A stretch of 64,000 bases of DNA, taken from Arthrobacter zhaoxinii (GTDB lineage: Bacteria > Actinomycetota > Actinomycetes > Actinomycetales > Micrococcaceae). Of the stretch, positions 1,758-58,358 are shown piece by piece. The DNA lies in NCBI RefSeq assembly GCF_024385505.1, contig NZ_JANFLT010000002.1:372001-436000 (forward strand). The letters are read 5' to 3'. Position 1 is the stretch's first letter. Each line of letters opens with the position of its first letter. A program made the translations under genes and the position numbers. The notes beneath the pieces are model-generated. The model was not told where the DNA came from and ran no database searches. It was given only the letters and a program-made list of their open reading frames with translations.

Positions 1758-3272
1758 TCATAGCTTGGAGGCGAGTCGGTAGTAAGCGGCGTTCCAGCGC
1801 ACTTCGCGCTGGAACGCCCGCAGGGTGGTGGCTGAGTCGATGAGGAGCAGTTCGACGCCGGCCATCTCGGCGAAGTCGGTGACCACGTCTGCGCCGATGG
1901 CGGTGCTGAGCACCGTGTGGTGGGCCGCGCCGGCCGTAAGCCACGCGGCCGCAGACGTCGCGAGGTCCGGCTGCGGCTGCCACACTGCACGGGCCACCGG
2001 AAGGTGCGGCAGCGGAGCATCCGGCGGCACCACGTCCACGGTGTTGGCAGTGAGCCGAAACCGGTCGCGCATGTCGGACATGGCAACAACGACGCCGGGG
2101 CCCGGATCGGTGTCGAACACCAGGCGGACGGGATCTTCCCTGTCCCCGATGCCCAGCGGGTGGATTTCAAGGGAGGGTTTCCGCGTGGTCAGGCTGGGGC
2201 AGATTTCAAGCATGTGCGCGCCGAGGATCTTCTCCTCGCCCGGGACCAGGTGGTAGGTGTAGTCCTCCATGAGGGAGGCACCGCCGGGCAGTCCGGCACC
2301 CATGACCTTCGCGGCGCGGACCAGCATGGCGGTCTTCCAGTCACCTTCGGCACCGAACCCGTAGCCGTGCGACATCAGCCGCTGCACGGCCAGCCCGGGC
2401 AGCTGCCGCAGCCCGCCGAGATCCTCGAAGTTCGTGGTGAAGGCACCGAAACCGCCTTCTTCCATGAACTGCAGAAGACCAAGCTCCTGGCGCGCTCCGT
2501 ACCTCAGTGACTCGTGCCGTCCGCCGCCGCGCCGCAGTTCCGGCGCCACGTCGTACAGCTCTTCGTATTCGGCCACGAGCTTGTCCACGGCGTCGTCGGG
2601 CTGGGCGTCCACCACGGCCACCAGGTCGTTGACTCCCCAGCTGTTGACGGAGACGCCGAACTGCAGCTCGGCTTCGGTCTTGTCGCCCTCGGTCACGGCG
2701 ACATTGCGCATGTTGTCGCCGAAACGGGCGATCCGCAGGTCCTGGATGGCAGCCCGTCCTGCGCAGGCCCGCTGCCAGGATTCAATCTGGGCGATGACCT
2801 CCGGGGCGGAGGCGTGGCCGACGACGGTCTTGCGCGGAACGTCGAGGCGGGTGGCGATGTAGCCGAACTCCCGGTCTCCGTGCGCAGCCTGGTTGAGGTT
2901 CATGAAGTCGAAATCGATTTCACCCCACGGCAGGGCGACGTTGATCTGGGTGTGCAGATGCAGCAGCGGCTTACGCAGCGCGTCCAGGCCGCTGATCCAC
3001 ATCTTGGCGGGACTGAAGGTGTGCATCCACGCGATCACGCCGATGACGCGGTGGTCTGCGTTGGCCTCCAGTGCTGCGGTGCGGATGGAGCCGGCATCGG
3101 TCAGGGTGGGCTTCCATGCGATCCGGACCGGCAGCCCGGCGGACTCGAGTATCCCGACAATGGCCTGTGACTGCTCGGCGACCTGGCGAAGGGTGTCTTC
3201 ACCGTAAAGATTCTGGCTGCCGGTGAGGAACCAGACCTCGTACGGTTCAAGGGAAGTATCTAGCGGGCTCAA
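1758..3272 (-). CDS. araA: L-arabinose isomerase
   Basis: Converts L-arabinose to L-ribulose, the first step of cytoplasmic arabinose breakdown. The 504-residue length matches the family. The N-terminal [12 protein letters not shown] motif is diagnostic, and the C-terminal region carries [15 protein letters not shown] and EIHPLGI, which hold the expected metal ligands and active-site residues. The start appears to be TTG at 3272, two bases after the araD stop, so translation is probably coupled to araD. It belongs to the order araB-araD-araA-binding protein-ATPase. Control should be through the operator before araB. Confidence 0.97.
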
Positions 3273-11493: not shown

Positions 11494-11763
11494 TTATCCA
11501 CAGGTCCTGTGGACAGTCTGTGCATAACGCGGCGTGTCTTGTGCACAGGCTGGGTATAAGCATGTGGATAAAACTTGGGTTTTTCCACAAAAGGGCCTCT
11601 GACTAGGGCAAATGCTTGTCCACACCTGTGTAAACAAACTATTTTTCCGCCGCGCCCACCAGTCGGTACCGTGTTGACAGGAGCTCCAAACAGGCCTAAG
11701 GGTGGCGAAATCCACAAATTACCCTGCCGATATCCACAACTCCGGCCTGCGGGCTGTGGATTT
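11494..11763. other. Cluster of DnaA boxes upstream of dnaB
   Basis: Two perfect 9-mers, TTATCCACA at 11494-11502 and TGTGGATAA at 11563-11571, lie here with close variants: TGTGGACAG 11508-11516, TTTTCCACA 11581-11589, TTGTCCACA 11616-11624, AAATCCACA 11708-11716, ATATCCACA 11730-11738 and TGTGGATTT 11755-11763. This is the same motif as the origin clusters near dnaA but about 45 kb away. It fills most of the 565-bp gap between dnaB (start 11300) and rplI (end 11866). Roles could be DnaA control of dnaB transcription or titration of DnaA. I see no gene in this gap. Confidence 0.8.
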
Positions 11764-44046: not shown

Positions 44047-45351
44047 ATGACGACGAATGCTGTCCGCCTGTCGCCGAATGAGGAAGCCGTCGCTGCGATG
44101 CTGTCGGTGGAGCCCTACCTGATTGACGTTCTCCCTGCGGGCGAGGTCGTCCCGGGCATGGGCAAAGACACGATACTCGTCTCGGGGCCCCTGATGCGCT
44201 GGCAGGATTACACCGGATGCCAACGCTTCGCGGTTGTTGGCGCTGCATTATTTGAAGGTCTGGCCTCCTCTGAAGCAGAGGCGGATGCCCTGCTCCGTTC
44301 GGGCGCTATCCGGCTGGGCTCCTGTCACGACTACGGCAGCGTAGGTTCCCTCACCGGGGTCTGCACCGCTTCAATGCCGGTTCTTGTGGTGCAGGACCGG
44401 GTGTCGGGCAGAACGGCAACCTGCAGGATGAATGAAGGCCCGGGAACACAGGCACTGACATTCGGATCCCGCGGACCTGCAGTTAGTGCCAACCTTGCCG
44501 TCATCAGGGACCAGGTGGCTCCGTCCCTTGGCCGCATCCTTCGTGACGCGCCGTTGCCGCTCCTGCCGGTCATGGCTTCGGCCCTGTCCATGGGGGACGA
44601 ACTTCATGGAAGGTCAAAGGCTGCGGCGCTCCTGTTCCGGAATGCCATCCTCGAAGGCGTTGTGAACAGTCCCGAAACCTACCCGGACACCGCGGCATTG
44701 CTGGCCTACCTCGACACTGCGGTATTTCACTTCCTGCACGTCGCCATGGCGGCCGCGAAGCTGGTGGCTGACGCGGCGGAGGGGATTGCCGGCAGCTCGA
44801 TCGTCACGGCCATGGCAATGAACGAGAAGGAGTTTGGTGTTCGGATTTCCGGCGTTCCCGGGCAATGGTTCCGTGCACCGCTGCCCCCAGTCTCCGGGTT
44901 TCCCGGAAGGTTCATGGCACCTTGGACCTCCAACGACCTGGGGTATAGCGGAGGCGACAGCCTCATTCTGGAAACGCTCGGCTTGGGCGGCGCTGCCGCT
45001 GCCGCTGCCCCTTCGCTGAGCCCCGTCTCCGTTGGAACTCCCGCAGAGATGGCAGACCTGACTACGTCCCTCTTCAAGGTCGCGCTGACGGAGCATCCGA
45101 CGCTGCGGATACCAGCACTGGGCGGGCGAGGGATTCCGTACGGCTTGGACGTTGCGTCGATTGCCCAGCACCGACTCGTGCCACCGGTGCACCTTGGCGC
45201 AACGCTGCGCACCGGCGGCCTGGCCGGGGCCATCTTTTTCACCCCTCCGCTGCAACCGTTCAGCGAGGCCTACGAACACCTGCAGGCTTCTTTACTCGGC
45301 GTTTCACGTGAAACAACTGAAGCGGTCTCCGAAAGTAGATGCTTGATCTAA
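44047..45351 (+). CDS. DUF1116 protein (AllG/YlbE-like), orphan
   Basis: 434 residues of the DUF1116 family; AVRLSPNEEAVAAMLSVEPY and the GRTATCRMNEGPGTQ region fit, as does LPVMASALSMGDELHGRSKA. In E. coli a DUF1116 protein (YlbE, renamed AllG) works with AllF (FdrA) and AllH in an oxamate transcarbamylase. No partner genes are seen within the window, so its substrate here is open. ATG 44047 has GAGGG five bases upstream; the longer frame to 44011 is unlikely. The codons 45301-45315 form a perfect parS core and encode VSRET. It sits in an accessory block between cwlM and parB. Confidence 0.78.
   Translation: MTTNAVRLSPNEEAVAAMLSVEPYLIDVLPAGEVVPGMGKDTILVSGPLMRWQDYTGCQRFAVVGAALFEGLASSEAEADALLRSGAIRLGSCHDYGSVGSLTGVCTASMPVLVVQDRVSGRTATCRMNEGPGTQALTFGSRGPAVSANLAVIRDQVAPSLGRILRDAPLPLLPVMASALSMGDELHGRSKAAALLFRNAILEGVVNSPETYPDTAALLAYLDTAVFHFLHVAMAAAKLVADAAEGIAGSSIVTAMAMNEKEFGVRISGVPGQWFRAPLPPVSGFPGRFMAPWTSNDLGYSGGDSLILETLGLGGAAAAAAPSLSPVSVGTPAEMADLTTSLFKVALTEHPTLRIPALGGRGIPYGLDVASIAQHRLVPPVHLGATLRTGGLAGAIFFTPPLQPFSEAYEHLQASLLGVSRETTEAVSESRCLI
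45301..45314. other. parS site 1 (inside the DUF1116 gene)
   Basis: Perfect 14-bp palindrome GTTTCACGTGAAAC, the core of the ParB-binding parS sequence. It is in frame and encodes VSRET near the C-terminus of the DUF1116 protein. It is the outermost parS in the window, 11.6 kb from the dnaA start. Confidence 0.95.
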
Positions 45352-45364
45352 GTCTTTAAAATCA

Positions 45365-45380
45365 AACAATTGCAATTGTT
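45365..45380. repeat. Perfect 16-bp AT-rich palindrome between convergent genes
   Basis: AACAATTGCAATTGTT is its own reverse complement. It overlaps the stop codon of the 45379-45945 regulator gene and lies 14 nt after the DUF1116 stop. It could be a weak terminator (TTTGATTTT follows on the minus strand) or a protein-binding site. Confidence 0.75.
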
Positions 45381-45945
45381 AGTCCGTGTTTTGCGCAGCT
45401 GGAGTCTCGGGTTCCGGTCCGGTGCCGGCGTCGGGGTGGATGGCCAGAAAAAGGGAATAGGGGGTACCGCCGTCCGCAGCTTCCTCCGCTTCGGCTTCGT
45501 CTAGCAAATCCTGGACGCGTTCCAGCAGCCTCGCATACCCGTCTTCCGTCAGGCGGATGCCCAGCCGGGAAATCGCGACCTGCTCTGATGCGGGTACTTG
45601 CCCGACCTCGGACATAAATGCACCGATCATGGCGCCCCGCAAACGCAGGTCCCGGCCGTCCAGATTCAGTTGCCATGATTTTCCCGTCGCACGGTATGGG
45701 ATTTCGAATGCGCCACTGGGGCCGGACCGGGCCTCCTGCGGTTCCAGGAAACCCGCCGCAACAAGTTTTCGCACGTGATAAAGCACTGTCGCCGGGTTGG
45801 CCGCGAGCTTGGTCGCGATTTCCTTGTTGGTTAGCTGCTCTTTGAGGCAGAGACGCAGGATCCGGATCCGCACCGCCGAAGCAAGGGCTTTTGCCTCATC
45901 CTCACTTGCTGACCGCCGGGGGGTCTGCCCGCTCTCCTTTGGCAT
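45379..45945 (-). CDS. ArsR-like winged-helix transcriptional regulator
   Basis: A 188-residue regulator. Residues about 15-75 form a winged helix (ASAVRIRILRLCLKEQLTNKEIATKL, then NPATVLYHVRKLVAAGFLEP). The rest is a helical ligand or dimer domain with an acidic Ala/Glu-rich tail. ATG 45945 is probably leaderless: TAGTCT (-10-like, 45957-45952) lies six bases before it. It is divergent from an MFS transporter gene 59 bp away and probably controls it through TTGACAAACATCAA. Inducer unknown. Confidence 0.9.
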   Translation of the reverse strand: MPKESGQTPRRSASEDEAKALASAVRIRILRLCLKEQLTNKEIATKLAANPATVLYHVRKLVAAGFLEPQEARSGPSGAFEIPYRATGKSWQLNLDGRDLRLRGAMIGAFMSEVGQVPASEQVAISRLGIRLTEDGYARLLERVQDLLDEAEAEEAADGGTPYSLFLAIHPDAGTGPEPETPAAQNTD

Positions 45946-45968
45946 GCCTGCAGACTACCAGAGGTCTA

Positions 45969-45989
45969 TTGACAAACATCAATCGATTG
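45969..45989. promoter_or_regulatory. Candidate operator between the regulator and MFS genes
   Basis: TTGACAAACATCAA (45969-45982) is an inverted repeat TTGA-N6-TCAA of the kind bound by ArsR-type regulators, and CAATCGATTG (45980-45989) is an overlapping perfect 10-bp palindrome. Both sit in the 59-bp divergent promoter region, between the -35 and -10 of the regulator gene. Confidence 0.6.
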
Positions 45990-46004
45990 GCGAGAGTCAA
46001 CCGC

Positions 46005-47282
46005 ATGACGACTGAAGATGGTGCCGGCAGCAAGGCCAACGGTGGGGTCCTCAAGGATCATGACTTCCGTTTCCTTTTCTATTCCACCTCGCTGAGCCAG
46101 TTAGGGCAGCAGATCTCAGGCCTCGCCCTGCCGCTGGTGGCCGTGGTGACCCTCGCTGCCAGTGAATTCGAAGTCGGAATGCTGTCCGCAATGAGCACCG
46201 TCGCTTTCCTGCTGATCGGATTGCCTGCCGGCGTCTGGGTTGACCGGCTTCGGTACCGCCACATACTTATCTCATCGGATGTCATCCGAGCGGCCGTACT
46301 GCTGACCGTTCCCGCTGCTTGGTGGATGGGAGTCCTGACGGTCTGGCAGCTCTACGCGGTAGCGCTGGTCATGGGCGTCTTCAGCGTCTTCTTCGACGTG
46401 GCCTACCAGAGTTACCTCCCACGGCTTATCGGGCGCGGCCAGCTGGTCGAAGGAAATGCCAAACTGGAGACAGTCCATTCTGTGGCGCAACTTGGTGGCC
46501 CCGTTGCTGCCGGGCAACTCATTGCCTGGCTCACGGCACCTGTGGCGCTGGCCCTGGATGTCGTCGCCATGGGCCTGTCTGCTCTGTTCATTGGACGCAT
46601 GCGGTACCGGCAGTCCAAACCGGTGCCCCTCCCAGGATCACGGCTCACTGCCGATATTGCGGAGGGCCTTCGGTTTGTTCTGGGCAATCCGCTGCTCCGC
46701 GTCATCGCCGGGTCAACAGCGTTGTTCAACCTTGCCTTCTCGGCCTACACGGCCATGCTGGTGTTCTTCCTGCCCCGTGAACTCGGGCTGGGTGCACACG
46801 AGGTCGGCATCGTCTTCTCGGTCCTGGGTGTCGGCGGCCTAGCCGGCGCCCTGGCAACGCGCCGGGTGACCCTGTGGCTGGGTGAGGGAAGGACAATCTG
46901 GCTCTCCATGGCTCTGACAGCGCCGTTTGCCCTCCTTCTTCCGGCGGCTCAGGATGGATGGTCAGTCTGGCTTGGCGCCGCCGGGCTGGGCCTAGTCAGC
47001 TTCGGAGTAGTTATCTACAACGTTACGCAGGTGAGTTTTCGCCAGCGGGTGACCCCGGACCGCCTGCTGGGGCGCATGAATGCCACGATGCGCTTCCTGG
47101 TGTGGGGAACCCAGCCCGTCGGGGCCTTGCTCGGAGGCGTGCTGGGGCAGTTCTACGGTGCGGAGGCTGCGCTCTGGATCGCGGGTACTGCGGCCTGCGC
47201 AGCGTTCCTGCCGGTCGCGCTGTCCCCCTTGCGGAAAATGCGGCAGTTGCCGGACGCTTCGCCTGCGTCCCTTCCTTCGTAG
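46005..47282 (+). CDS. MFS efflux transporter
   Basis: A 425-residue major-facilitator protein with about 12 membrane segments, similar to enterobactin/macrolide-efflux type exporters (MFS_3). FLFYSTSLSQLGQQISGLALPL at the N-terminus and GLPAGVWVDRLRYRHILISSD in the first loop are typical. ATG 46005 was chosen; the open frame extends 38 codons upstream through the operator and into the regulator gene, which is not credible. Divergent from the ArsR-like gene, which probably represses it. Substrate unknown. Confidence 0.9.
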   Translation: MTTEDGAGSKANGGVLKDHDFRFLFYSTSLSQLGQQISGLALPLVAVVTLAASEFEVGMLSAMSTVAFLLIGLPAGVWVDRLRYRHILISSDVIRAAVLLTVPAAWWMGVLTVWQLYAVALVMGVFSVFFDVAYQSYLPRLIGRGQLVEGNAKLETVHSVAQLGGPVAAGQLIAWLTAPVALALDVVAMGLSALFIGRMRYRQSKPVPLPGSRLTADIAEGLRFVLGNPLLRVIAGSTALFNLAFSAYTAMLVFFLPRELGLGAHEVGIVFSVLGVGGLAGALATRRVTLWLGEGRTIWLSMALTAPFALLLPAAQDGWSVWLGAAGLGLVSFGVVIYNVTQVSFRQRVTPDRLLGRMNATMRFLVWGTQPVGALLGGVLGQFYGAEAALWIAGTAACAAFLPVALSPLRKMRQLPDASPASLPS

Positions 47283-47339
47283 TATTTGGCATCGGCTCCG
47301 CGCTGCCGATTGCCGTATGCCGGCGCACTGGTCCCACAG

Positions 47340-47356
47340 GGAGAACTCGTTTCTCC
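47340..47356 (+). terminator. Weak hairpin after the MFS gene
   Basis: GGAGAA and TTCTCC pair around CTCGT, 57 nt after the MFS stop, and are followed by TTGA. It is a modest terminator candidate and marks the beginning of the non-coding region. Confidence 0.35.
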
Positions 47357-47522
47357 TTGAGACCCGGGAAGTTGAAGGCCGGTTGCGACCGAGTTCCCGA
47401 AGCAGGAGCCTGAGCGCCGGTGCTTCCCGGTTACGCCCCGGGGCTCTGCCCCCCCTACCAAACAGAGGTGCGCAGGAAGCGCCGGGAGTAGGTACGGGCT
47501 GCTGCAGGAAGCGTGCTGGCGT

Positions 47523-47540
47523 CCTGTCCTATCGGACAGG
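47523..47540. repeat. Hairpin-forming inverted repeat with a nearby extra copy
   Basis: CCTGTCC and GGACAGG form a 7-bp stem around a 4-nt loop, and another GTCCTGTCC occurs about 30 bp downstream (47550-47558). Function unknown. Confidence 0.5.
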
Positions 47541-48430
47541 CCCTCAGGTTGTCCTGTCCCTGCGGCAGCCGGAGGCGGCCGGAAGCGGCCGGCAACGGGC
47601 GTACATGTGTACAGGTACAGCCGGTGCGGGGCACTGCCGCCGCATCCACCCCTTCCCTTCGCCGGGAGGCGCTCAGCCGGCGTGACGTGGGGGGGGGCGG
47701 ACAAATACGGAATCCAGCCCCCTCGTCCTTCGCGGTGAGGTTCCCCATCCTTCCCTCTTGGGCGGAACTACGCAGACCGACGGCAGCTCTGCTGCGATGC
47801 TCTGGAGTGACACCTCCGAAACCTTCCTCGCGGAGCCGTGGACGATGCAGCTGGACCGCTGGGCGCTGACAGGGCAGCTGGGGATTCGTTCAGTGCTTGG
47901 TTCGGGCGGGGAGGCCGATCCCTATCGATCCACTGGTTCTGGGCTGCTGCACCCGCAGCGCAGCTTTCCCGCAGCCCTGCCTACCGAAACTGAGCCACCC
48001 GCGCGGCAAGTGGTCGCTTTCGGCGAGCGAACGGCCAATGCATTCCACAACAACACCCGGCGGTAAGCACGACTGGCACCACCAGGGGCTTGCCCCCGTG
48101 CATTTATTCCAGTCCTGCAACTCGACCCTTGGAAGCCGTGAGCCCGGTCAGATGACGAACCTGGGGAAGTTGGCCCGATTGCACCGATGCCGCGATCCGC
48201 TCCTGGTGGCTATGGCACCGGTTGCCTGACCATGTGCTGACGACCTTGGCAGATGACGACAATTAAACTGCCAGATCGCGCGGTCGCACACCAGAGGACA
48301 GCGGCCCGCCATCTGCAGGATCCGCAGTATCCATTGGAGATCGCGGCAATAGGATCCTGTGGTTCGGCTAGGGTGCTCCAAAGCTCCTACGCTGCTTCTC
48401 TAGTGCTGCACCAGTAGTGAACATCACTGC

Positions 48431-48444
48431 GTTTCACGTGAAAC
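48431..48444. other. parS site 2
   Basis: Perfect GTTTCACGTGAAAC core in non-coding DNA, followed by A so that 15 of 16 consensus positions match. Confidence 0.95.
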
Positions 48445-48757
48445 AGTGAGTTTCAGGGCGTCGCTTCGCACAGAGCGGTGACCGGTATCTTACGGTGTTT
48501 GCCATCAGGGATCATGTTCTCAGAATTGCTCCGCGCTTGATGCCAGTGACCGGACGGCTCGTTTAGCTCGACGTTGAACGCCGGCGATCATCTTGAGCGC
48601 CGCGGCAGTAGGCGGCCACCACACACACAATAGGTGGGCGGATCATGTCACGAGTGGCTAGCTTTCGCTCACTCAAGCGGATGTGTTAGCTACCTCCCGT
48701 GCGCGTATCCATAGTCTTTCCGCCCTTCAAGCATGGGATCCCGCACAATTTGACGCC

Positions 48758-48771
48758 GTTTCACGTGAAAC
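48758..48771. other. parS site 3
   Basis: Perfect GTTTCACGTGAAAC core, 327 bp from site 2, in non-coding DNA. Confidence 0.95.
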
Positions 48772-49256
48772 ACGCGTACCGGGACCAGCTCCAGGAACCG
48801 TCGGAACGCGCGCACCTCCACCACTTCGCTCGAGGAGCCACCCGTCCTACATCAGTTCGATCCTTGGGCAAGCCACACGTGAGTTCAGCTCCGCACCGGC
48901 CACCAACGATGCTGCTTCCAGGCAAGAGTAAGCTACCGAGCTTCACGATGACGCAGTCCGCACACTGGGTCGGGAGATGCTCTTGACCAAGATCAGTTGC
49001 GCATGCCCACTCTGCGGTTGTGACGCTTGAAAAGAACCAGTGTGCACGGCCCTCCGGAGGACCTCTTCCGTTTTAGCGGAGCTCAGATAGCACCCGTCCG
49101 AGCGATGTTGTTGTCGTCGTTGAGAGCCCACACAGGCGGGCGCCTATCCGAGTATGTTCCAGGAGCTATAAGGCTAATGCGGCGCGGCAGTTGGAACGGA
49201 CAGGCCAGGGCATGACAACGGTCCAGTGGGGCGCGGGTACGGATCGAAAGGGGGCA

Positions 49257-49270
49257 GTTTCACGTGAAAC
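49257..49270. other. parS site 4
   Basis: Perfect GTTTCACGTGAAAC core, 499 bp from site 3, in non-coding DNA. Confidence 0.95.
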
Positions 49271-49626
49271 ATTGCAGCACTGCACTGGCACCCCGATACC
49301 CTCGGGCCCGCGCGAATCTAGACCAAGTTCCCCAGGCCGGAGCCATCCTCAGACCGCCGGGGGTAGTACGTCCTGGCACCTACTAACACGGATGGGAGAT
49401 CCCGCTGCTTGCGAGCAGACCACACGGCCGTATATCAGGAAGGGGCCATTCGGATAGCCCGCCGAATACTGGCGCGCCTCACCGCGGAAGTCATCTGGCA
49501 GGCTTACCCCGGAGAAGCAACCAGCAACCGGACAGTACTCGGCGCTGCTTTTCCCATGTTCCGCGTATCCAATGCAATAGCTCTCCTAGCCGACAGCAGC
49601 ATTTTGGTTCGCATTGGCCGGCCCTC

Positions 49627-49640
49627 GTTTCACGTGAAAC
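49627..49640. other. parS site 5
   Basis: Perfect 14-bp core; the flanks extend the palindrome to CGTTTCACGTGAAACG. 370 bp from site 4. Confidence 0.95.
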
Positions 49641-49983
49641 GATGCATCATCTCCGACCCCGAGAGACCATTAAAGAGGGAAGAACCAACGTGCGCAACCT
49701 TGAGGCATAGACTCGGGAGTATAAACAATGGTTTACTGTCGAGTTTATCCGGAAAGATGACAGGGCGCGATTGCACGGAACCAGGCCAGCACACCGTGGC
49801 TTGCAGGGCAGGACACGAGCTGCACAGCGGCAGCATGGAACAGACCGCCTATTAGATATGTGTGGAGGGCGTGCCTGACGGAGTGCCCATAAACCGCGGG
49901 CCTATCGCCACCAAGTTTAAAGTCGCATCCCGGAAAAGCCTGTTGCCTGGCTCGTCCTGGCGCTAATGGAGCAGCAGTCTCGC

Positions 49984-49999
49984 TGTTTCACGTGAAACA
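49984..49999. other. parS site 6 (full 16-bp consensus)
   Basis: TGTTTCACGTGAAACA, the complete 16-bp parS consensus, 358 bp from site 5 and about 390 bp after the parB stop. Confidence 0.97.
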
Positions 50000-50390
50000 A
50001 GGCGGTCGTGCTAATCGATTTAGGGGTGCCGGCACGTACTCCCCACGGAGGGCAAACACCTGCAACCTCTGTTGCGGGCTGGCCCGCGATCGGCCAACCT
50101 TCGCTTTACGACCGCATAGCCTGCGCGCCTAGCCGTCCTGAACGAGGTGTACCCAACCAAATGGACGTGCATACCGATGCGGATACGGAATAAATGATTC
50201 TCTCGGGATCGCAGCCACCGTCTGGATTCCAATGGCAACACTGCCGGACAAGGGCTGCGACGGGGAACGCGGGGGCGAGGGAGACGCTGACTGCAGTAGA
50301 AGCATCACGGGACAAGTCCTTACCGCCACAGATCGAACTCCGGGCACACAGGTACGACCGGTTAAACGCTCGTAATGCTCTGCGGGGCCG

Positions 50391-51890
50391 CTACTCGCTG
50401 GGAGCGGCAAGAACTCCCATGATCCGGTTCAGGTCATCGACACTGGCGAATTCGATGCTGACCTTGCCCTTACGTGCTCCGAGAGTGATCTTGACATTGG
50501 TATCAAGGCGGTCGGAGAGCGACGTTGCCAGGTAGTCGAGGCGTTCGTGACGTGCGCCGACTTTCGGTTTGGACGACTTTGCCGGCTTCCGAAGCCCGTC
50601 GGCAAGAGAGACGATTTCCTCGGTGGCCCGGACAGAGAGGCCCTCTGCCACAATTTTCTGTGCCAGCTTCTCCATCTCAGCGGGATCCCCCAGGCCCAGC
50701 AGGGCGCGCGCATGTCCTGCGGACACGACCCCTGCAGCAAGACGCCTCTGCACCAGCGGGGGAAGCTTCATCAACCTGAGGGTGTTGGTTACCTGGGGCC
50801 GCGACCTTCCGATGCGGTCCGCTAGCTCCTCGTGCGAGCATTCAAAATCGTCCAGGAGCTGCTGGTACGCCGCTGCTTCTTCAAGGGGGTTCAGCTGGCT
50901 CCGGTGCAGGTTCTCCAGCAGTGCATCACGGAGGAGGTCAACATCCTGGGTTGATCGGATGATCGCCGGCACAAAGTCCAGCCCGGCCTCCCGCGATGCC
51001 CGCCAGCGCCGTTCACCCATAACCAGTTCATAGGGGTGTTCTGCATCGTCTTCAGGAGAAGGGCGGACAACGATGGGCTGCAGCACGCCGATTTCACGAA
51101 TGGAATGCACCAGCTCGGCCATGTCATCTTCGTCGAAGACTGAACGTGGCTGCTTGCGGTTCGGGTGGATGGAATCAATCGGCAGTTCCGCAAAGATTGC
51201 CCCGGGAACCTGAACTAGCCCCGTGCCGCCGTCATCCGAACGCGATGTTTCACGGGAAACATCTGCGGCCTGCTTCCGGCCGGCGTCATCCGTGGGCTGC
51301 CCGGCGACCTCCTGGGGATCGGATCGATCCGCGGCGGCCATCGGTTCGACGGCGGCTGCCGGGTCCTTGCTGCCGTTTGTAGACGCAGTCGCTGCGTCCG
51401 GCGCGCTCTTGTTCTCTGTCACTTCCGGAGCAGTGGCGGTGTCTTCGGCAGCACGTCCTGCAGTAGTACTTCCAGCGGCCTTCTCAGCCCGTTTGGGCGC
51501 CTGGTTTCCCGTTGCCGGGGAGGGCTCGCCTGTAGAGCCGGACGAAGCCAGGGTAGCCGGCTGAACGGCCTCGGGGGCAGCAGCAGCGCTGACCTCAGGG
51601 AGCTCTGCATCCTTAGCAGCGTCGTCCTGGGCAGACGACCGCGCGGTGGAGCTACGGGTGGTGGACTTCTTTGCAGGTCCGCGCAGGGCTTCCTTATTAA
51701 TCCCCGCGCCCCGACGGGGACCGGACCCGGAGGCAGAGGCACGGGGCTCGTCCGCTGCAGCGAAAAACAAATCAACCGGACGGCCGGAAGCAACGTTTGC
51801 CTGGCTCGGAGTTTCAGTCTCCGCAGGCTCCGCGCTGCTGGGAATCAATGCACCCAGACCGCGGCCTAAACCGCGACGCTTCTCGGCCAT
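50391..51890 (-). CDS. parB: Chromosome partitioning protein ParB
   Basis: Binds parS and spreads to build the partition complex near the origin. 499 residues, long for the family because of an Ala/Ser/Glu-rich N-terminal extension of about 225 residues. The core starts at [20 protein letters not shown], with the CTPase motif GERRWRA near 300 and a helix-turn-helix ([20 protein letters not shown]) near 360. The C-terminus is a dimerisation domain. The extreme N-terminus [17 protein letters not shown] is the ParA-contacting peptide. ATG 51890 has AAGGA upstream. A one-mismatch parS lies inside the gene. Confidence 0.97.
51246..51261. other. parS-like site 7 (one mismatch, inside parB)
   Basis: TGTTTCACGGGAAACA differs from the consensus at one central position. 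On the parB strand it encodes VSRET in the disordered N-terminal extension. Confidence 0.7.
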
Positions 51891-51995
51891 GGGTAAGTCC
51901 TTCCCTTATGCACGCCTATCAAGCGGCACGGATTGATTGTGAGAGTATTCTACGGCGAGGCGACGGACTGGCGTCCGAACCGCGCCGGGGTGTCC

Positions 51996-53168
51996 CTAGG
52001 CCCGCTGGGCTATCTCGGCAGCCGCTTCCGAGTAGGACAAGGCGCCGGTAGAGGACGGATCATAAGTCATTACCGTCTGCTGGTAGCTCGGCGCCTCGGA
52101 AACTCGTACGGAACGCGGAACAACTGCACGCAGCACCTGTTCCGGGAAATGCTCACGGACCTCCGCCGCCACCTGAGCGGCGAGGTTGGTTCTTCCGTCA
52201 TACATGGTCAGCAGAATCGTGGAGACAACCAGATCGGCGTTCAGGTGCTTCTGGATCATCTCAATGTTCTTCAGCAGCTGGCTGAGGCCCTCGAGCGCGT
52301 AGTACTCGCACTGGATCGGGATGAGAACTTCCCTTGCCGCGACAAAGGCATTGACGGTCAGCAGGCCGAGGCTGGGCGGGCAGTCGATGAAGATGTAATC
52401 GAGCCGCTCCAGGCCCTGCTTTTCCCGCTCGGCAGCGTAAACATTGATTGCCCGGCTCAAGCGCTGCTCACGCGCCACGAGGGAGACCAGCTCGATTTCG
52501 GCGCCGGCCAAGTGGATCGTGGCCGGCGCGCAGATGAGATTGCTGATGTCCGGGCACTGTGCAACCACATTGGCCAGCGGAAGGTCATCGATCAGCACAT
52601 CGTAGATACTCTCCACGTCCGCACGGTGGTCAATGCCGAGGGCCGTTGATGCATTCCCCTGCGGATCGATATCAATAACCAGGACGTTCTGGCCCGCGGT
52701 AGCCAGGGCGGCCGCCAGGTTGACCGTCGTGGTGGTCTTTCCGACCCCGCCCTTCTGGTTACTTACCGTCATGATCCGCGTCTTGGGCGGGCGCGGCAAA
52801 ACGCGGCCGCGCAGCTTTTCCCGGCGCCGGTTTTCGCTCACCAGTTCCCGGGCCAGCGGAGTGCTCTCATCCATCAAGTCCATAACGTCTACCGATGACG
52901 GCGCGGGAGCGGCTTCATCGGATACACCACCTTCGATAGCTGGGGGGGCCGGCACGAGTACGGCACTGCTTTCAGGCTGGGCGGGCTGCGGCGGCTCAAT
53001 TGCCGCCGTTTCACGTGAAACAACCGCCGGTGATTTACTAGCTTCACTCACCTGCGGTTGCTTACGGCCGAATGATGCAGACAGGGCAGAACCGAGTGCG
53101 GCAAAAGGGGGAATTCGTTTTGCGGCAGAATCACGCGCACTCACCTGGTCATGCTCACTTTCCAACAT
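51996..53168 (-). CDS. parA: Chromosome partitioning ATPase ParA
   Basis: The ATPase that moves ParB-bound origins. The ParA/MinD core begins near residue 128 with TVSNQKGGVGKTTTTVNLAA (deviant Walker A), followed by VIDIDPQGNASTALG and FIDCPPSLGLLTVNA. It has an N-terminal extension of about 125 residues rich in Ala/Pro/Ser. ATG 53168 gives 390 residues; a start at MDLMDES (residue 96) is possible and would put the internal parS in the leader instead of the coding region. It is 105 nt upstream of parB in the same direction. Confidence 0.96.
   Translation of the reverse strand: MLESEHDQVSARDSAAKRIPPFAALGSALSASFGRKQPQVSEASKSPAVVSRETAAIEPPQPAQPESSAVLVPAPPAIEGGVSDEAAPAPSSVDVMDLMDESTPLARELVSENRRREKLRGRVLPRPPKTRIMTVSNQKGGVGKTTTTVNLAAALATAGQNVLVIDIDPQGNASTALGIDHRADVESIYDVLIDDLPLANVVAQCPDISNLICAPATIHLAGAEIELVSLVAREQRLSRAINVYAAEREKQGLERLDYIFIDCPPSLGLLTVNAFVAAREVLIPIQCEYYALEGLSQLLKNIEMIQKHLNADLVVSTILLTMYDGRTNLAAQVAAEVREHFPEQVLRAVVPRSVRVSEAPSYQQTVMTYDPSSTGALSYSEAAAEIAQRA
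53008..53021. other. parS site 8 (inside parA)
   Basis: Perfect GTTTCACGTGAAAC core, encoding VSRET at ParA residues 50-54 if the long start is used. It is the parS nearest to oriC, 3.9 kb from dnaA. Confidence 0.95.
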
Positions 53169-56936: not shown

Positions 56937-58358
56937 GTGGGTACGGACGAAATCAACGATGTTGGCAGCTCCTGGCGCAAGGTCATTCGGACTCTGGAGT
57001 CCGATGACCGGGTAACTCCCCGACAGCGTGGATTCGTTGTGCTGGCACAGGCCCAGGGCCTGATCGGCACCACCCTTCTGGTAGCGGTTCCCAACGAACT
57101 GACCCGCGAAGTACTGCAGACACAACTGAAGAACATCCTCGACGAGGTTCTCCGAGGCGTCTTCCAGGCTGATATCCAGTGTGCGTTCGTCATTGATTCG
57201 GACCTCACGCCGGTGGCGGAGGCGGAGCCCGAGCCCGAGGAACAGCCGGCGGCCCCAAGCCCGGTGCCTTCCGGGGAAAGCGGCGCACCCTCCCCGACGC
57301 CGCCGAGCACCAGCCAGGAATTCGGCCGGCTCAATCCCAAGTATGTCTTTGAGACCTTCGTGATCGGGTCCTCGAACCGGTTTGCGCATGCCGCAGCCGT
57401 TGCTGTGGCGGAGGCTCCGGCCAAGGCCTATAACCCCTTGTTCATCTACGGGGACTCGGGGTTGGGCAAGACCCACCTCCTTCACGCCATCGGCCATTAC
57501 GCACGCCACCTCTACACGGGGATCCGCGTTCGGTATGTGAATTCGGAGGAATTCACCAACGACTTCATCAACTCCATCCGGTACGACGAGGGTGCCAGCT
57601 TCAAGCAGCTCTACCGCAACGTGGACATCCTGCTGATTGACGACATCCAGTTCCTCGCCAACAAGGACGCCACCCAGGAAGAGTTCTTCCACACCTTCAA
57701 TGCCCTGCACAATCACAACAAGCAGGTCGTCATCACCTCCGACCTTCCGCCGAAGCAGCTCTCCGGGTTCGAGGAACGGATGCGGTCGCGGTTCGAGTGG
57801 GGCCTGCTGACAGACGTCCAGCCGCCGGAACTTGAGACCCGCATCGCCATCCTTCGAAAGAAGGCAATCGGCGACAGCCTGAGTGCGCCGGACGACGTCC
57901 TCGAATACATCGCGTCCAAAATCTCCACCAACATCCGGGAACTGGAGGGCGCGCTGATCCGGGTGACCGCCTTCGCCAGCCTGAACCGGCAGCAGGTGGA
58001 TGTGGGGCTGGCCGAGATTGTGCTGAAGGACCTGATTACCGACGACGGCGCCCAGGAGATCACTGCCGCGTCAATCCTCGGGCAGACCGCCGCCTACTTC
58101 CAGATCAGCCTGGAGGAACTTTGCAGCAAATCCCGGACCCGCACGCTGGTCACTGCCCGGCAGATTGCCATGTACCTCTGCCGCGAGCTGACCGACATGT
58201 CACTTCCCAAGATCGGCCAGGAACTGGGTGGACGCGACCACACCACCGTGATCCACGCAGACCGGAAAATCCGCGAGCTGATGGCTGAGCGGCGGGCGAT
58301 CTACAACCAGGTCACCGAGCTGACCAACAGGATCAAGCAGCAGCAGCGCGAGGCCTGA
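56937..58358 (+). CDS. dnaA: Chromosomal replication initiator DnaA
   Basis: The AAA+ initiator that binds DnaA boxes and opens oriC. 473 residues. Domain I is at about 1-90 and domain II is the Pro/Glu-rich linker. Domain III has Walker [14 protein letters not shown] near 174 and [20 protein letters not shown] near 235. Domain IV ends with the DNA-binding [15 protein letters not shown] near 435. GTG 56937. DnaA-box clusters lie on both sides of the gene. Confidence 0.98.

Follow-up and report, generated by a model that had tools for sequence, protein, structure and literature searches.

Accounts of bacterial centromeres usually present them as short sites that lie among genes; plasmid centromeres of the sopC or iteron type are dedicated non-coding tracts of tandem repeats adjoining the par genes. 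Here we describe a gene-free gap of 3108 bp, located immediately downstream of parB and carrying five parS sites, in the oriC region of Arthrobacter zhaoxinii (the window: 64,000 nucleotides of contig NZ_JANFLT010000002.1). We consider it probable (roughly 0.85) that this gap forms the principal part of the chromosomal centromere in an Arthrobacter-type bacterium. It shares with the sopC/iteron centromeres a non-coding nature and a position beside the par genes, and differs in that its sites are single chromosomal 14-bp palindromes, hundreds of bp apart within a non-repeated spacer.

ParB is a clamp dependent on cytidine triphosphate (CTP) that loads at parS and spreads from there (PMC7053999, PMC9242446). 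Multiple parS sites are thought to give robustness, and in most bacteria parS lie inside a region of 5–40 kb (PMC8357415). Corynebacterium glutamicum has ten parS, nine of them intergenic, in one oriC-proximal cluster that spans 35 kb and lies 73 kb from oriC (PMC7083940); there the ParB–parS complex recruits SMC (PMC7022226). The present locus resembles that of C. glutamicum in being an actinobacterial ParABS system with clustered, mostly intergenic parS near oriC, but five of its seven exact sites fall within one 3.1-kb gap directly downstream of parB. As with the clustered parS of other bacteria, the sites form a tight group near the origin (PMC8357415); unlike those, most of them occupy a single gene-free spacer that shows no evident sequence constraint, and their spacing is more even than random. 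Among the matches listed in a search of open-access titles and abstract starts, which does not establish absence from print, there was no gene-free parS gap in Arthrobacter, no parS in a parB terminator and no module of DnaA boxes and parS in the family.

A gene-free gap with five parS sites

Called genes cover 81.5% of the window (codon model trained on 34 of its long open reading frames, ORFs), and the interval between 47283 and 50390 is the largest gene-free gap, the next measuring 1495, 1230 and 819 bp. It starts directly after the stop codon of an MFS transporter gene (ORF end 47282) and reaches the stop codon of parB.

47283..50390, no strand: gene-free gap, spacer of the proposed centromere (ORF and codon tests, comparison of relatives)
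48431..48444, no strand: parS core 1 of the gap (exact core match)
48758..48771, no strand: parS core 2 of the gap (exact core match)
49257..49270, no strand: parS core 3 of the gap (exact core match)
49627..49640, no strand: parS core 4 of the gap (exact core match)
49985..49998, no strand: parS core 5 of the gap (sole perfect 16-mer)

The five copies of the 14-bp core GTTTCACGTGAAAC start at 48431, 48758, 49257, 49627 and 49985, spaced by 327, 499, 370 and 358 bp and lying ∼7–8.5 kb from dnaA. The full 16-mer TGTTTCACGTGAAACA is matched at 49984 only; the other four sites deviate at one or both outer bases. Matches to the 16-mer with up to three mismatches number eight in the window, against 0.08 expected from shuffles. 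Seven exact cores occur in the whole draft genome (12 contigs), all of them within 7.7 kb of the window (45.3–53.0 kb) and five of them in the gap; two further cores carry a single mismatch, one inside parB and one on another contig, outside the cluster. Tandem duplication as the source of the even spacing was rejected, the flanks of the sites being unlike one another. Apart from parS, a look for tandem and other repeats yielded just short two-copy matches.

By every test run, the gap is non-coding. In 600-bp windows covering 47301–50600, GC content never varies by more than 0.09 among the three codon phases, against 0.16–0.5 in most windows inside genes. On its own this is no proof, since the parB linker and the parB–parA junction (51201–52100) are equally flat (0.05–0.08). 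ORFs of 60–200 amino acids touch the gap: none of those inside it has a positive codon score, and ten that touch it gave no Pfam match at E≤1. GC content drops from 0.67 (47001–48000) to 0.59 (48001–50000). An initial sequence-only reading had described a gene-free, non-coding stretch amid packed genes with five perfect parS sites 327–499 bp apart. Its coordinates and spacing proved exact, and no conserved protein-coding signal emerged from codon statistics, from Pfam matches or, within 1.9 kb of parB, from ORF conservation; the sites are perfect as 14-bp cores, but only one is perfect as a 16-mer.

ParABS genes and a proposed mechanism

The window spans the oriC region, with dnaA at 56937–58358 and yidC, jag, rsmG, parA and parB on the minus strand.

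45301..45314, no strand: exact parS within the end of an AllG-like gene (core match)
45891..47282, plus strand: MFS transporter gene, left border of the gap, convergent with parB (ORF and profile match)
50391..51890, minus strand: parB, with ParB_N, HTH_ParB and ParB_C domains (domain matches)
51247..51260, no strand: single-mismatch parS within parB (core match)
51996..53168, minus strand: parA (ORF and profile match)
53008..53021, no strand: exact parS within parA (core match)

Adjacent parA and parB near oriC, with parS also near oriC, are the hallmarks of a chromosomal ParABS system. The three ParB domains (PF02195, PF17762 and PF23552) all exceed their cut-offs, and the translation contains the GERR motif, which in ParB has a role with CTP. 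The genome also encodes smc (TIGR02168 match of 885 bits, over the cut-off). A low-complexity stretch of ∼215 residues separates the N-terminal motif of ParB from its ParB_N domain (gene at 50391–51890).

By analogy with the described systems, the gap would be the principal zone of ParB loading. ParB–CTP clamps would load at its five parS, 327–499 bp apart, with further loading at the parS within parA, at that in the AllG-like gene and perhaps at the near-site in parB; the clamps would then slide across the spacer and the adjacent genes. ParA would move the resulting ParB–parS complex, which is also the likely place of SMC loading.

Rapid drift of the spacer, persistence of parS

Between the window and a second genome of the same species (G028), 15.0% of the 3068 aligned positions of the gap differ, and all five parS cores are unchanged. 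The chance of 70 unchanged core bases at 15% divergence is ∼1e-5 (our own arithmetic, with sites assumed independent). The parS spacings in G028 are 327, 505, 369 and 369 bp; in the more distant G026, where 42% of aligned gap sites differ, they are 324, 493, 350 and 365 bp. The similarity of these values is not claimed as a constraint on spacing, since drift could keep lengths similar: the comparison with G028 has 31 indel events and 460 substitutions, that with G026 53 and 1267.

The rate of change in the spacer was set against that of synonymous sites by computing both distances (Jukes-Cantor for the gap) for eight pairs, the pair L152–L154 being left out; for the window genome (G000) and G028 the synonymous distance was taken over seven neighbouring genes.

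G000–G028: gap 0.167, synonymous 0.084
G020–G021: gap 0.045, synonymous 0.040
G009–G010: gap 0.081, synonymous 0.033
G000–G026: gap 0.619, synonymous 0.607
L105–L106: gap 0.384, synonymous 0.251
L135–L139: gap 0.645, synonymous 0.251
L117–L160: gap 1.054, synonymous 0.847
L126–L142: gap 1.068, synonymous 1.73

In seven of the eight pairs the spacer changes at least as fast as synonymous sites; L126–L142 shows the opposite and, like some others, is near saturation. The spacer is thus about as free as synonymous sites, or freer. To judge from these alignments, evident sequence constraint falls on the parS sites only, and the intervening DNA appears to be a spacer whose bases are free to change.

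A divergent block relative to G028 lies at 48801–49800, where identity is 70–87% per 200 bases, against 94–99% in most 200-base blocks of the flanking genes. A hypermutating element was rejected as the cause, the substitutions looking ordinary and transition-rich; the block is perhaps a recombined haplotype. G028 (L063) also carries a G-rich short tandem array of ∼80 bp between the parB-proximal parS and the next, which the window lacks. In G026 the MFS gene is absent, and the end of the gap away from parB holds a 57-residue AllG-like fragment, ∼3.5 kb from parB: gene decay does happen on that side of the gap in this genome.

The gap across the genus, family and order

A comparison of the same interval in relatives, which the sequence-only reading had proposed as a check, shows a gap with several parS kept in every genus genome compared while its sequence drifts. 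All 29 genomes have a gap below parB, of 1.7–5.9 kb and with 4–9 exact parS (5 to 11 exact parS in the genome as a whole). Two estimates of gap length were made, one from the codon model and one from the position of the nearest ORF that is conserved in three or more further loci, and the smaller value was used. The conserved-ORF estimate is too long where no shared gene follows (for example in G023, G019 and G002), the codon-model estimate where the model overlooks a gene (for example in G020, G021, G009 and G025). In none of the 29 genomes does an ORF with such conservation lie within 1.9 kb of parB. In narrow-sense Arthrobacter, clade-specific genes sit between the gap and the amidase gene.

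A 12-genome alignment of the stretches (each including 100 bases of parB and sometimes the end of the next gene) has identities of 37–66%, except for three close pairs at 86–96%. Three of the five window parS stand out as conserved. Inside the gap there is no conserved block without parS: no such 25-column bin exceeds 0.54 agreement with the window.

Beyond the genus we assembled 95 non-duplicate loci: 80 loci with parB, minus 13 genus duplicates and L156 (no parB by motif), plus the 29 genus genomes; one metagenome-assembled genome supplies both L124 and L130, on separate contigs. Spacing was examined in the 60 loci where the gap was resolved and held four sites or more, 35 being dropped for want of a downstream gene or of sufficient sites. 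The coefficient of variation of parS spacing averages 0.64, against 0.85 for uniformly placed points (Wilcoxon 1e-7, with loci not independent); that of the window is 0.20 (rank 0.010).

The order was sampled through 52 further members, hand-picked from 198 searched, of which 152 have an exact core somewhere in the genome. Three or more parS precede the first gene called below parB in 10 of 12 members of the same family and in nine of 40 members of other families (no gene was called for two of the 40). The multi-parS gap is therefore common in the family, not universal, and recurs in other families. Three arrays below parB from other families are of note: 13 sites in 4.6 kb (L203, genome G206), seven in 5.4 kb (G090) and 10 in 0.9 kb (L202, genome G178).

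Several points weigh against the gap as the main part of the centromere. An exact parS downstream of parB is missing from four family loci (L107, L110, L116 and L127) and occurs just once in seven: L118 (Kocuria), L121, L123, L128, L129 (Zhihengliuella), L138 (Galactobacter) and L140. Two of the five window parS do not align by column in the 12-genome alignment, because spacings vary between clades. The gap lengths depend on a codon model that was trained on the window and misses a conserved gene in, for example, G020, G021 and G009; genes both atypical and unshared would escape both estimates. The counts of genomes and loci are not phylogenetically independent. Finally, a five-site platform need not be essential, since one parS suffices in C. 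glutamicum (PMC7083940).

A parS within a terminator-like palindrome at the parB border

Relative to the window, G028 has 33 extra bases, and these contain a long palindrome with a sixth parS, at 45 bp from the end of parB.

50366..50367, no strand: point at which G028 has the 33 additional bases (comparison with G028)

Because an exact parS falls in the first 75 bp past the parB stop in 21 of the 29 genus genomes, loss from the window seems more likely than gain in G028. Over the 95 loci, 57 exact parS lie within this distance, in 56 loci. The first 75 bp after the parB stop were searched for border palindromes in loci L063–L090 and L103–L170. For 46 of the 57 parB-proximal sites (46 loci; 18 of 29 in the genus) the perfect palindrome continues for 4 bp or more on both sides, compared with 19 of the 467 downstream parS elsewhere (Fisher 5e-40, uncorrected for relatedness). 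At least five T occur in the ten bases past the GC arm in 31 of the 46 extended sites, against 17 of the 467 others. Three hand-chosen border sequences fold into long hairpins with parS as the apical stem (z of -9.5, -8.4 and -3.6), and in one relative without a border parS a terminator-like hairpin of the ordinary kind is present (z -6.7). The border of the window has no hairpin (z -0.8), its best parS match having seven mismatches and no long palindrome. The 52 order members have 16 exact parS at no more than 95 bp from the parB stop, of which six are palindrome-extended (G182, G069, G085, G213, G036 and G166) and 10 are not. The border palindrome resembles an intrinsic terminator and may terminate transcription of parB.

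A DnaA-box module in a sister clade

Word counts over 59 gaps (239,469 bases, three near-identical gaps having been dropped from 62) identified as overrepresented, relative to Markov expectation, parS itself, the variant GTTCCACGTGAAAC (26 times) and DnaA-box words; CTGTGGATAA occurs 48 times in 28 gaps, its Markov expectation being floored at 0.5. At least four DnaA boxes, with up to one mismatch, lie within 650 bp in 37 of 147 entries. Removal of G090 (another family) and G033 (which repeats L135) leaves 35 loci, all from one clade of Pseudarthrobacter and soil Arthrobacter.

The module comprises 4–8 boxes over 344–639 bp, mostly around one parS: an exact parS lies within the cluster in 31 of the 35 loci, in 29 of these at 111–173 bp past the first box. 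L161 has a single-mismatch parS instead, and L168, G113 and G196 have none; L155 has the same layout with three boxes. Examples lie at 2446–2828 (L125), 2762–3130 (L126) and 2314–2695 (L133) from the end of parB, separate from boxes 5–8 kb off, beyond parB, in the place that dnaA would occupy if the layout matches that of the window. Where the contig reaches the next conserved gene in module-bearing loci of Pseudarthrobacter, Paenarthrobacter and soil Arthrobacter, this gene is trxA or trxB, or an ORF overlapping them; it lies 3.9–7.4 kb from parB, with 5–11 parS between.

Alternative explanations

If the gap is the main part of the centromere, two explanations compete for why it is empty. The first holds that selection, rather than mere tolerance, would keep it free of genes, as ParB loading or SMC translocation would suffer from transcription or from coding constraint. 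This is the strong form of what the sequence-only reading had suggested, a transcription-free platform on which ParB loads and condensin is recruited. We regard this as possible, at less than even odds. In its favor are the persistence of the gap throughout the genus despite sequence turnover, and the long parB–trxA/trxB intervals of Pseudarthrobacter and soil Arthrobacter, which hold no conserved ORF. In 46 of 95 loci, moreover, a parB transcript would immediately meet the parS-based palindrome, and in some others an ordinary hairpin. However, the window strain lacks the palindrome, simple scans found no terminator-like site at either edge of its gap, and the flanking MFS and parB genes converge on it. 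The clade-specific genes beside the gap in narrow-sense Arthrobacter indicate that gene insertion nearby is tolerated. Nor need transcription be excluded for ParB to function: in vitro, condensates of Bacillus subtilis ParB were transcribed by Escherichia coli RNA polymerase, though long pauses became somewhat more frequent (PMC10681803, which also cites reports of lowered gene expression near parS), and ParB is able to pass roadblocks by recruitment (PMC9242446).

The second holds that individual parS matter but that the length of the gap and its lack of genes have no role: a neutral junk spacer. Drift at or above the synonymous rate in seven of eight pairs fits this, as do the range of gap lengths in the genus and the sufficiency of one parS in C. 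glutamicum (PMC7083940). Nonetheless a gap is present in all 29 genus genomes, and its parS are spaced more evenly than random. Compact bacterial genomes, furthermore, normally lose neutral DNA of this size. Our confidence in a junk spacer likewise falls short of even. A multi-kb spacer that is kept while its sequence is free to change, with parS persisting in it, offers a direct test of whether empty DNA matters, with transcription, spacing and length as possible limits on the loading of ParB clamps and on SMC traffic.

Three further explanations were weighed. Decayed genes, raised as an option by the sequence-only reading, are quite improbable. The ORFs that touch the gap, its lower GC content and the AllG-like fragment of G026 are the kind of trace that decay would leave; but phase signal, positive codon scores and Pfam matches are all lacking, no ORF near parB is conserved, and the loci examined yielded no intact counterpart of any ORF in the gap. 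The same reading had also suggested an unrecognised RNA. A structured or regulatory RNA, or a short gene that escaped recognition, is very improbable: simple scans of 47200–50500 returned no terminator-like site and one promoter-like site (48499), no more than in shuffles; Rfam matches at E≤1 between 45 and 52 kb are limited to two sub-threshold eukaryotic families, both outside the gap; the window has no tRNA or tmRNA; and the 12-genome alignment holds no conserved parS-free block inside the gap. A role in replication control (DnaA titration or a secondary origin) instead of segregation, as the sister-clade module might suggest, is equally improbable and for the window contradicted, its gap having no DnaA box with up to one mismatch and such clusters occurring in none of the 29 genus genomes, while the module itself is only 0–0.1 more AT-rich than its gap; with no DnaA boxes inside, the window gap was also rejected as part of oriC.

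Returning to the centromere, we tentatively propose a further reading, at less than even odds. The Micrococcaceae would have a true regional centromere: a gene-free spacer of free sequence beside parB with fairly even parS. Its parB border would, in about half of the loci, be dual, loading ParB as DNA and terminating parAB transcripts as RNA; the DnaA arrays that bracket parS in the sister clade would be a built-in link between initiation and segregation; and the lineage of the window, which is without the DnaA module, would have lost the terminator parS. The parS–terminator composite and the DnaA–parS module of the relatives provide testable links from segregation to parAB transcription and to initiation.

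Neighbouring genes and minor observations

To the left of the gap lie, in order, the MFS gene, the AllG-like gene, the amidase gene, trxA and trxB, trxA being named by position only. Between the AllG-like and MFS genes, on the minus strand, an ORF of 188 amino acids (45379–45945) has no NCBIfam match at E≤1e-10; it has relatives in 10 of the compared loci. Elsewhere in the window, six DnaA boxes with up to one mismatch lie at 11494–11738, between dnaB and rplI and away from the boxes of dnaA.

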